This document shows, in pieces, positions 16,261 to 18,900 of a stretch of DNA of 37,363 bases. The DNA is from Phycisphaerae bacterium (GTDB taxonomy: Bacteria > Planctomycetota > Phycisphaerae > Phycisphaerales > UBA1924). The notes under the pieces were generated by a model. That model was given only the letters and a program-made list of their open reading frames with translations, was not told the DNA's origin and made no database searches. The stretch lies in contig JAUIFD010000012.1 in assembly GCA_030429485.1 (NCBI GenBank), positions 1 to 37,363 of the forward strand, given 5' to 3'. A program made the position numbers and the translations under genes. How positions within the stretch are numbered: position 1 is the stretch's first letter; each line of letters starts with the position of its first letter.

Positions 16261-16316
16261 CGAGTCCAAACGCCACCTACCCTCCACCCGCCGGTTCAAT
16301 AGACCCCGAGGTTCTT

Positions 16317-17909
16317 ATGTCTACCCCCGCGGGCGAGACCCGCTCTGAGTCTGTCAATCCGTCCGTCGACGGACCGCAACATCCGCTGCGCGAGATGCTC
16401 ACGATCGCGCTGCCGACCATCGTCACCATGACGAGCTACACCGTCATGCAGTTCGTCGATGGATGGATGGTCTCACGCATCGGTCCCGAACCGGTCTACG
16501 TCTCCGCCCAGGGCAACGGCGGTATGGCCGCGTGGATGGCGATCGCCGCGGTCCTCGGGCTCACCGGCATCATCAACACCTACGTGTCGCAGAACCTCGG
16601 CGCGGGCAAGCCCGAGCGCGGGGCGGCGTACGTCTGGAACGGGTGGTGGATGTGCGTCGCGGTCTGGGTCTTGGCGATGCTGCCCTACGCGATCGTGCTC
16701 CCGCACATCTTCGCGAGCTTCGAAGACCACAGCGAAGAACTCGTGCGCATGGAGCGCGGCTATGCCAATATCCTGGTGCTGGGCTCCATCCTCACAATGG
16801 GCGCCAAGGTTGTCGCCCACTACTTCTACGGCATGCACCGCCCGGGCGTGGTCATGGTCGCGGCGCTCACCGGCAACGTCGTCAACGTCTTCGCGAACTG
16901 GGTGCTGATCTTCGGCAACCTCGGCGGGCCGACGCTCGGCGTTGTCGGCGCAGCCTGGGGCACGCTCATCGGGACCGCGGTCGAACTCTCGATCCCACTC
17001 GCGATGTTCCTCGGCCCGATGCACGCCAGGTACGCGACGCGCCAGGCCTGGCGCCCGTCGATGCTGCACATCAAGGACATCCTCAAGCTCGGGTGGCCCG
17101 CGGGCGCGATGATGTTCTCGGAGATGGTCTGCTGGGGTTGGCTCATGGCGGTGCTCCTACCCAAGGCGGGAGCGGTCGCGGGCGACAACCCGGTGCATCA
17201 CAACACGGCCGGGTGGGTGGCTCTGCGGTACATGCACGTGTCGTTCATGCCGACCGTGGGCCTTTCCGTCGCCCTGACCGCGATCGTCGGGCGGTGCATG
17301 GGGATGCGCCGGCCGGACCTCGCGGCCGAGCGAACCTGGCTTGCGCTGAAACTCGCCCTCGCGTACATGGGCGTGTGGGCGGTGGCGTTCGTCCTGTTTC
17401 GAGAGCCGATGATCCGCCTGTTCATCCCGGAGACGATGAGCGAACTCGATGCGTCCGAGGTGATCCGCATCGGCGGCATGGTGCTGATCGCGGCCGCGGT
17501 GTTCCAGATCTTCGACGCGGTCGCAATCGTCACGAGCGGCGCGCTCCGCGGCGCGGGCGACGCGGTCTGGCCGGGCGTGGTCATGGCGACGCTGTCCTGG
17601 GGGTGCCTGCTCGGCGGGGGCACGTGGATCATCAAGGTCGCGCCCGGGCTCGGCTCCGTCGGGCCGTGGGCGATGGCGGCGACCTACATCGTGCTCGCAG
17701 GGGTGCTCCTGCTCGCCCGGTTCTCCAGCGGGAAGTGGCGGACCATGCGGGTGGTGCATGACGAGCCCATCGGCGAGGCACAATCGCTCGAGGGCGAGCC
17801 GGCAACGGTCCCGATCGCGGCGGCCGAGGAGTTGGGGTTCTCGGGTCCTCCGCCCGCTGCCCCGCCCCCCGCGCTCGAGACGACCGCCGACCCCGAACCG
17901 CCGCGCTAA
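16317..17909 (+). CDS. MATE-family multidrug/metabolite exporter
   Basis: A 530-residue polytopic inner-membrane protein with about twelve hydrophobic segments. The first helix region (LTIALPTIVTMTSYTVMQFVD, then GWMVSRIGPEPVYVSAQGNG) and the repeat in the second half (ILKLGWPAGAMMFSEM ... YMHVSFMPTVGLSVALTAIVGRCMG, then IFDAVAIVTSGALRGAGD) are MATE signatures. These transporters export cationic drugs or metabolites against H+ or Na+; the substrate is unknown. The C-terminal 55 residues are a soluble Pro/Ala/Glu tail. The start is supported by GAGG shortly before ATG; the long in-frame upstream stretch belongs to the phhB shadow frame. Confidence 0.92.
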   Translation: MSTPAGETRSESVNPSVDGPQHPLREMLTIALPTIVTMTSYTVMQFVDGWMVSRIGPEPVYVSAQGNGGMAAWMAIAAVLGLTGIINTYVSQNLGAGKPERGAAYVWNGWWMCVAVWVLAMLPYAIVLPHIFASFEDHSEELVRMERGYANILVLGSILTMGAKVVAHYFYGMHRPGVVMVAALTGNVVNVFANWVLIFGNLGGPTLGVVGAAWGTLIGTAVELSIPLAMFLGPMHARYATRQAWRPSMLHIKDILKLGWPAGAMMFSEMVCWGWLMAVLLPKAGAVAGDNPVHHNTAGWVALRYMHVSFMPTVGLSVALTAIVGRCMGMRRPDLAAERTWLALKLALAYMGVWAVAFVLFREPMIRLFIPETMSELDASEVIRIGGMVLIAAAVFQIFDAVAIVTSGALRGAGDAVWPGVVMATLSWGCLLGGGTWIIKVAPGLGSVGPWAMAATYIVLAGVLLLARFSSGKWRTMRVVHDEPIGEAQSLEGEPATVPIAAAEELGFSGPPPAAPPPALETTADPEPPR

Positions 17910-17967: not shown

Positions 17968-18900
17968 ATGAGCGATCCGATGGACATGATGATCGGGCTT
18001 GAGGGCGCGAAGCGCGACGCCGAAGCCGCCGCCGCCCACGCCGCAAGGGCGACCGAACTCGAGCAGGCGGGCGACCGCCCCGCCGCCGCGGAGGCCCTCC
18101 GCCAGGCGGTGGCCGCCGACATCACGAACAACGACATGGTCTTCCGCCTCGCCTACGCCCTCGACCTGCTCGGCGAGGAGGAAGAGGCGATCGCGCTGTA
18201 CGAGCGCATCTGCGAGACCCCGCCGGCGCCGATCAACGCGTTGATGAACTTGGCGGTGCTCTACGAAGACCGCGGGCAGTACGCCGCCGCCGAACGCTGC
18301 CTCAAGCAGGTGCTCGAGACGAGCCCCAACCACGCGCGGGCTCGCCTGTTCATGAAAGACGTCGTCGCGTCGAAGGACATGCACATCGAGGAGGACACCG
18401 AGCGCGACGCCCTGAAGCGCAAGGCCCTGCTCGACACGCCGGTAACCGAGTTCGAGCTTTCCGTCCGGGCGCGCACGTGCCTCAAGAAGATGAACATCCG
18501 CACGCTCGGCGACCTGCTCCGCATCACCGAAGCCGAGCTGATGAGCTACAAGAACTTCGGCGAGTCGAGCCTCTCCGAGATCAAGCGGATGCTCGCCGCC
18601 AAGGGGCTCAAGCTCGGACAGGGGCTCGAAGACGCCCACCGCGCCGCCCGACGCCAGATCATGGAGTCGCTCAAGGGTTCGGGCAAGGAGGGCGCGCTGG
18701 GCAAGCCCGTCTCCGAGTTGCAGTTCTCGGTGCGGGCGCGCAAGGCGCTCCAGCTGCTCAACATCCAGACGCTCGGCGACCTCGCGTCACACACCGAGGC
18801 CGAGCTCATGGGCGTGAAGAACTTCGGGCAGACCTCGCTCATCGAAGTGCGCGAGCGCCTCTCCGAGCACGGCCTCGCGCTGCGCGAACTCGATTCCTGA
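17968..18900 (+). CDS. TPR protein with two tandem RNA polymerase alpha-CTD-like domains
   Basis: A 310-residue soluble protein. Residues 15-135 are TPR-like helices ('ARATELEQAGDRPAAAEALRQAV', 'ALMNLAVLYEDRGQYAAAERCLKQVLE'). Residues 160-217 and 248-306 each match the C-terminal domain of the RNA polymerase alpha subunit: FELSVRARTCLKKMNIRTLG and LQFSVRARKALQLLNIQTLG, then 'TEAELMxxKNFGxxSLxEI'. The Arg equivalent to DNA-contacting Arg265 of E. coli alpha is kept in both (Arg167, Arg256), as are the Asn and Gly of NFG; Asn268 and Lys298 equivalents are changed. There is no alpha N-terminal domain. Binding to DNA, sigma or a regulator is a reasonable inference. The start ATG has GGGAG upstream; the earlier in-frame stretch overlaps the MATE gene. 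Confidence 0.9.
   Translation: MSDPMDMMIGLEGAKRDAEAAAAHAARATELEQAGDRPAAAEALRQAVAADITNNDMVFRLAYALDLLGEEEEAIALYERICETPPAPINALMNLAVLYEDRGQYAAAERCLKQVLETSPNHARARLFMKDVVASKDMHIEEDTERDALKRKALLDTPVTEFELSVRARTCLKKMNIRTLGDLLRITEAELMSYKNFGESSLSEIKRMLAAKGLKLGQGLEDAHRAARRQIMESLKGSGKEGALGKPVSELQFSVRARKALQLLNIQTLGDLASHTEAELMGVKNFGQTSLIEVRERLSEHGLALRELDS

Follow-up and report, generated by a model that had tools for sequence, protein, structure and literature searches.

A protein of 310 residues, encoded by the tpr-actd gene in the window (the whole stretch of 37,363 nucleotides of DNA that was analysed), is the form, seen in Phycisphaerales, of a TPR protein that carries two detached alpha-CTDs of RNA polymerase (RNAP) and occurs throughout Planctomycetota, mostly in single copy. 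Both domains are alpha-CTDs by sequence and by predicted fold, and they are conserved throughout the phylum. The Arg residue equivalent to Arg265 of alpha is kept in both copies, and the acidic residues that face sigma are kept mainly in copy 1. No description of a protein with TPRs and two alpha-CTDs was found in the literature searched (open-licence PMC papers). The tpr-actd protein represents a variant of the alpha-CTD family that is new and occurs throughout the phylum. The original observation was confirmed and extended by the phylum-wide occurrence, the uneven retention of the sigma-facing acids and the links to ruvA and to phages; its interpretation was supported in part.

Domain structure and distribution of the protein

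The tpr-actd gene was delimited on the forward strand at positions 17968–18900 from the open reading frame, the Pfam matches and the genome search, with an ATG start codon at 17968 and the stop codon at 18898–18900. All parts of the protein lie on the same strand. The TPR module covers residues 18 to 138 approximately (18019–18381; helices H18-33 to H123-138) according to the Pfam TPR models, the AlphaFold2 secondary structure and VIA-align. Copy 1 of the alpha-CTD covers residues 150–210 (18415–18597; Pfam, genome search, PDB phmmer and Foldseek), and copy 2 was located at 18694–18867 by the genome search and PDB phmmer. The original prediction of two alpha-CTD copies fused to TPRs was confirmed by Pfam, in which RNA_pol_A_CTD matched twice alongside several TPR models. 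The predicted absence of the alpha-NTD was also borne out: the NCBIfam rpoA models matched through their C-terminal positions only, far below their cut-off, and the N-terminus of the protein is formed by TPRs. Hence, the protein cannot assemble RNAP as a subunit. The profile search of the window genome gave one further PF03118 match only, in an open frame of 381 residues on another contig, which is taken to be the true rpoA.

The AlphaFold2 model was computed with a family alignment of 81 rows as input, which held the window protein and 80 of the 151 available homologues (the 44 far ones in full and one in three of the near ones; the sequence of locus L033 was not included). The mean pLDDT was 90.9. 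The model consists of TPR helical hairpins followed by two small helical CTDs, with a helix at residues 220–235 in the linker between the CTDs. With a pTM of 0.58, the model does not settle how the domains are oriented to one another.

The PF03118 (RNA_pol_A_CTD) model matched the protein in two stretches with 131.7 bits against a curated cut-off of 23.8 and a whole-protein E value of 7.5e-39, the best stretch being residues 150–210. In phmmer searches of the PDB with each copy alone, all distinct sequences at E < 0.01 were named RNAP alpha (54/54 for copy 1 and 43/43 for copy 2). Among the 50 Foldseek matches listed was one alpha-CTD chain, 9zum_B (C. crescentus alpha-CTD on AT-rich DNA), with an rmsd of 0.7 over 66 columns and 52% identity; the aligned copy is not stated in this match, and the identity fits copy 1. 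A better match to a generic helix-hairpin-helix family would have refuted the original prediction, but the Pfam match to HHH_5 was weak (E 0.0034). It is all that speaks for a common helix-hairpin-helix protein that happens to resemble alpha-CTD, and this explanation was rejected as having a negligible probability, given the far stronger PF03118 match, the PDB matches to RNAP alpha only and the invariance of both Arg265 equivalents. The E values, the high confidence of the model and the phylum-wide conservation together exclude a chance likeness.

The protein thus resembles RNAP alpha (PF03118) in sequence, in predicted fold and in the set of Arg265, N294, G296 and E302, to which copy 1 adds the acids at 259 and 261. 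It differs from RNAP alpha in having no alpha-NTD, two CTDs in one chain and two clades of its own, and also in the Arg at position 267 of copy 1 (146/152) and copy 2 (143/152), a residue that is not among the four commonest at this position in 20 rpoA sequences. PRK07758 (NF005841), a hypothetical protein made of an alpha-CTD only, likewise lacks the alpha-NTD, but it is short, with a single domain and no TPR array. The BREX PglW kinase model (NF033442) has a stretch that matches the alpha-CTDs of the tpr-actd protein (E 2.2e-9), but it is a kinase model of 1391 positions and the match lies far below its cut-off.

The TPR assignment was established by TPR_2 (42.5 bits against a cut-off of 27) and by the array of helical hairpins in the model. 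VIA-align gave TPR-domain matches over model residues 16–139 and informs on the TPR part only, because TPR chains fill its match list. The best-kept polar residues of the module in the 81-row alignment were N94 (81/81), E100 (78), D101 (79) and D131 (79). By hand alignment to the TPR consensus, these residues fall on positions that line the groove, which suggests that the groove may be acidic and its ligand basic. TPR co-chaperones of the carboxylate-clamp type (PP5, RPAP3, CHIP and Sti1) share the TPR fold, with VIA-align Z scores of 15.8–17.1, although the fold shows no function. The clamp that holds Hsp70 and Hsp90 is formed by K5/N9, N6 and K2/R6; in a hand alignment, these residues are replaced in the tpr-actd protein by A25/T29, R60 and N90/N94, and a clamp of the Hsp type was therefore rejected.

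At a threshold of E <= 1e-20, a homologue was found in 277 of 294 Planctomycetota genomes, nearly always as one match per genome, and in 153 of the 155 genomes of high quality. Among 31 related genomes, the window's own included, 30 carry a full-length homologue; the remaining one, G001 (92% complete), gave an rpoA-type alpha-CTD match and TPR matches only. Genome G171 was missed at E <= 1e-20, yet three PF03118 matches are present in it. Of the 65 genomes searched with PF03118, 56 gave at least three matches, the number that rpoA and the two copies together would produce; the nine with fewer were G001, G038, G061, G066, G117, G120, G148, G204 and G269. Outside the window's order, the open frames are mostly 430–590 residues long with a longer TPR part, and the 310-residue form belongs to the window's order. 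A single scan of the genome_contigs collection, from which 80 loci were kept, returned records titled as planctomycetes, Phycisphaer-type bacteria and 'uncultured bacterium', together with one titled as a cyanobacterium, which is taken to be a mis-titled bin. The plasmid and phage collections gave rpoA-type matches, and the four inspected were complete rpoA genes (the unannotated phage records H26 and H27 were left out).

Conserved residues of the two copies

Residues were counted in 176 distinct sequences (152 with two domains, 20 rpoA and 4 with a single domain), obtained from 195 CTD-bearing open frames after two loci (L002 and L003) were set aside, leaving 193, and identical C-termini were removed. 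Only six columns of the 81-row alignment were invariant, namely N94, R167, L172, N196, G198 and R256, and R167, N196 and G198 of copy 1 correspond to positions R265, N294 and G296 of alpha. The assignment of Arg167 and Arg256 as the Arg265 equivalents agreed with their codons (18466–18468 and 18733–18735, forward strand). The original prediction was to fall if these residues varied among orthologues; Arg was found at R167 in 151 of 152 sequences and at R256 in 152 of 152, and both were invariant in 81/81 alignment rows. The sole exception was copy 1 of L033 with Gln, and R265 was the only column of copy 2 that was identical in all 152 sequences. The other residues of the DNA-gripping set were kept nearly as well in copies 1 and 2, respectively: N294 in 151/152 and 147/152, G296 in 152/152 and 147/152, and E302 in 151/152 and 151/152. 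The combination of R265, G296, S/T299 and E302 was found in 150/152 sequences of copy 1 and 146/152 of copy 2, and the alpha-CTDs of the tpr-actd protein hold the full set of Arg265, N294, G296 and E302. In the E. coli rrnBP1 complex, the side chains of R265 and N294 are inserted in the minor groove (PMC7822876).

As had been foreseen, other contacts differ between the copies. At the position of Asn268, the window protein has Thr170 (18475–18477, forward strand) in copy 1 and Lys259 in copy 2, and another residue stands in place of Lys298. Asn268 is a DNA contact of functional alpha-CTDs and no Pfam criterion, and neither window copy has it. Across the homologues, copy 1 of the near clade has T in 67, N in 40 and D in 1 of 108 sequences, copy 1 of the far clade has N in 43/44, and copy 2 has Lys or Arg in 145/152. 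The phosphate contacts K291 and K298 are missing from the commonest residues of both copies, and the Lys298 position is Thr in 19/20 planctomycete rpoA sequences as well. The N268T substitution in E. coli alpha abolished activity at PBAD, as reported in PMC11434276. Of the results that speak against DNA binding by the window protein, Thr170 weighs most, and it weakens the case for the clade as well. The binding of UP-like DNA that had been proposed may still hold, conservation of residues being the one line of support for it.

The acids that face sigma divided the two copies. Residues at both the 259 and the 261 positions were acidic in 149/152 sequences of copy 1, 31/152 of copy 2 and 11/20 of rpoA. 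In copy 1 of the window protein, the equivalents of D259 and E261 are Glu161 and Glu163 (18448–18456, forward strand). The 259 and 261 acids of E. coli alpha contact R603 of sigma70 (PMC5511352). Six planctomycete sigma-A loci were fetched, and the sigma Arg (HP[VI]R) was present in 5/5 of the C-termini read.

In an unrooted tree of 89 rows and 74 columns, which has several long branches, copy 2 ones among them, copy 1 formed one clade (96/88) and copy 2 formed another (98/92). All rpoA sequences grouped together (97/95), the 20 planctomycete ones with the 5 of other bacterial origin. Each copy forming a clade apart from all rpoA suggests that each has had its own long-kept role. The same pattern indicates that the two-domain layout is likely to be as old as the sampled Planctomycetota families. 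The idea that the host had lately captured the CTD of its rpoA was unsupported, since both copies stand apart from planctomycete rpoA and that of other phyla together in this 74-column tree. The spacing of the two Arg residues ranges from 77 to 114 residues in the far sequences and from 88 to 91 in the near ones. Copy 2 was altered at G296 in G079 (K), G166 (R), G210 (S) and G243 (K), each with copy 1 kept; it is absent from the protein of G117, in which copy 1 is kept, and is judged to be lost there. As a separate observation, family f50 (L161 of G117, L169 of G243 and L155 of G079) has an altered or lost copy 2; copy 1, the TPRs and the position next to ruvA are retained.

Free alpha-CTD proteins on viral contigs

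A scan of viral contigs with the 81-row alignment gave 13 loci. L206 and L207 (5001-5195) encode free proteins of 75 residues that scored best with the copy 2 HMM, at 98.4 bits against 76.5 with the rpoA HMM, and L208 (5001-5192) encodes one of 70 residues with 89.7 and 74.4 bits, respectively. These proteins grouped with copy 2 in a second tree (90/91, not starred), which lacks as many as seven of the rows with long branches that the earlier tree contained. L207 at least is a phage, as it carries a terminase large subunit; a dUTPase was found on L208. The likeness to copy 2 points to planctomycetes as the probable hosts of the three contigs. PHROGs held no family for these free domains and none for the window protein. 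The remaining viral contigs, L209-L218, encode small alpha-CTD proteins that differ in their N-terminal parts; in L213, L216 and L217, two such genes stand in a row, and their products have cysteine-rich, zinc-ribbon-like starts. Two planctomycete genomes were also seen to encode an additional small protein with one alpha-CTD (L172:2036-2434 and L173:2047-2313, both on the reverse strand). All these small open frames (L172, L173 and L206-L218) share with the tpr-actd protein an alpha-CTD without an alpha-NTD, but they are short, with one domain and no TPR array.

Possible functions of the detached alpha-CTD pair

DNA binding, contact with sigma, binding of a TPR ligand and an effect on transcription are predicted for the tpr-actd protein from these sequence features. 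The reading that we favour, tentatively and at somewhat less than an even chance, is an auxiliary pair of detached alpha-CTDs acting in trans, with copy 1 facing sigma, copy 2 on the neighbouring groove and the TPRs recruiting a partner. One of the two alpha-CTDs of RNAP lies beside sigma region 4 and the other lies further upstream. Both copies of the tpr-actd protein keep the DNA grip and only copy 1 keeps the sigma-facing acids, so that the two would be arranged in the same way, with copy 1 as the domain next to sigma and copy 2 as the upstream one. Copy 1 would insert its Arg/Asn pair into the A/T-rich minor groove beside the -35 region and touch sigma region 4 via the acidic 259/261 surface, and copy 2 would grip the neighbouring minor groove. 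The TPR groove, with its conserved N90, N94, E100, D101 and D131, would bind a partner and bring it to promoters or anchor it there. If the domain offers a useful hold on the transcription or the DNA of a host, free domains of the copy 2 type on viral contigs are what one would expect to see.

A more specific proposal, which we regard as rather doubtful, is a trans-acting promoter pair with copy 1 proximal and copy 2 distal to sigma and the TPRs coupling it to a regulator or RNAP, in which phages carry copy 2 to interfere. If this proposal is true, the protein would be an initiation factor for transcription with a new architecture, present throughout the phylum.

It is unlikely that the protein instead bridges A/T-rich sites in the manner of nucleoid-associated or chromosome-organising proteins, with no relation to RNAP. 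Such a role would suit two domains of the DNA-binding type on one chain with a linker of variable length, a near-universal and mostly single-copy occurrence, and the mean net charge, which is +2.1 for copy 1 and +1.5 for copy 2 against -0.6 for the planctomycete rpoA CTDs. However, copy 1 keeps the sigma-contact acids better than rpoA does, and a pure nucleoid protein would need none.

The gene neighbourhood bears on a further possibility, which is more unlikely still, that the protein acts in recombination or repair, its alpha-CTDs holding branched or A/T-rich DNA and its TPRs recruiting RuvAB or another repair machine. Outside the window's class, tpr-actd is often the first gene of a ruvA row. 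By a hand count of coordinates, 24 of the 51 genomes searched, 45 of which gave a RuvA_N match, have ruvA as the next gene downstream on the strand of tpr-actd, with ruvC between the two in G166 and G210 (order tpr-actd, ruvC, ruvA). The order tpr-actd, ruvA, ruvB, queH, spoIID-like, tgt, yajC, secD was read in L169 and L155, the domains of L169 being assigned by Pfam. Furthermore, RuvA also has helix-hairpin-helix motifs (HHH_5). On the other hand, the tpr-actd domains resemble alpha-CTD and not the motifs of RuvA, and position is weak evidence because the cluster also holds genes for tRNA modification and secretion. Among the genomes searched, the ruvA link was absent from those of Phycisphaerae, the window's included, and from those of family f32, although these retain the protein. 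Moreover, RuvA_N was not found in 6 of the 51 planctomycete genomes, the window's (G000) among them. Separately, the RuvA_N matches in the window's class are weak, and RuvC is present in 37 of 38 genomes searched.

In the window itself, a MatE-family transporter gene lies just upstream of tpr-actd (16311–17909, forward strand; Pfam MatE). This neighbour is conserved in Phycisphaerales, being found directly upstream on the same strand in 62 of the 80 genome_contigs loci, which are of Phycisphaerales type. The 18 loci without an adjacent MatE gene comprise 11 with no match despite 8 kb upstream, 4 with MatE elsewhere and 3 that are cut short. The genes for pterin dehydratase, a GluQ-like protein and two other window genes were found in 3/80 loci, and the pectin-lyase-like open frame and the PBP of the window in 0/80. 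A functional operon of the window neighbours was accordingly rejected, since the conserved MatE pair suggests no mechanism and the others are rarely or never found nearby. Neither the ruvA nor the MatE link fixes the function of the tpr-actd protein or bears on transcription.

The least probable of the functional readings, and quite improbable in itself, is a protein-protein adaptor or decoy that would use its alpha-CTDs to draw sigma or activators away from RNAP, with no binding of DNA; competition with real alpha-CTD for activators had been raised as a possibility in the original prediction. The acidic 259/261 pair of copy 1 and the loss of Asn268 from copy 2 and from copy 1 of the window protein would agree with it, as would E286, which we take to be part of the activator-facing surface of alpha and which is kept in 145/152 sequences of copy 1 and 142/152 of copy 2. 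Nevertheless, Arg265, N294, G296 and E302 are among the best-conserved residues in both copies, a pure decoy would not need them twice, and copy 2 is mostly without the sigma-facing acids.

The alpha-CTD is the main handle of bacterial RNAP for reading upstream DNA and receiving activators. The near-universal presence in planctomycetes, whose cell biology is unusual, of a protein that has two such domains but no part for assembling the polymerase suggests that promoter control has a further, unstudied layer there or that the domain has been put to a new use. The difference in residues between the copies leads to a precise and testable prediction, and the phage-borne copies of one of the domains suggest that this domain may be a point of attack.
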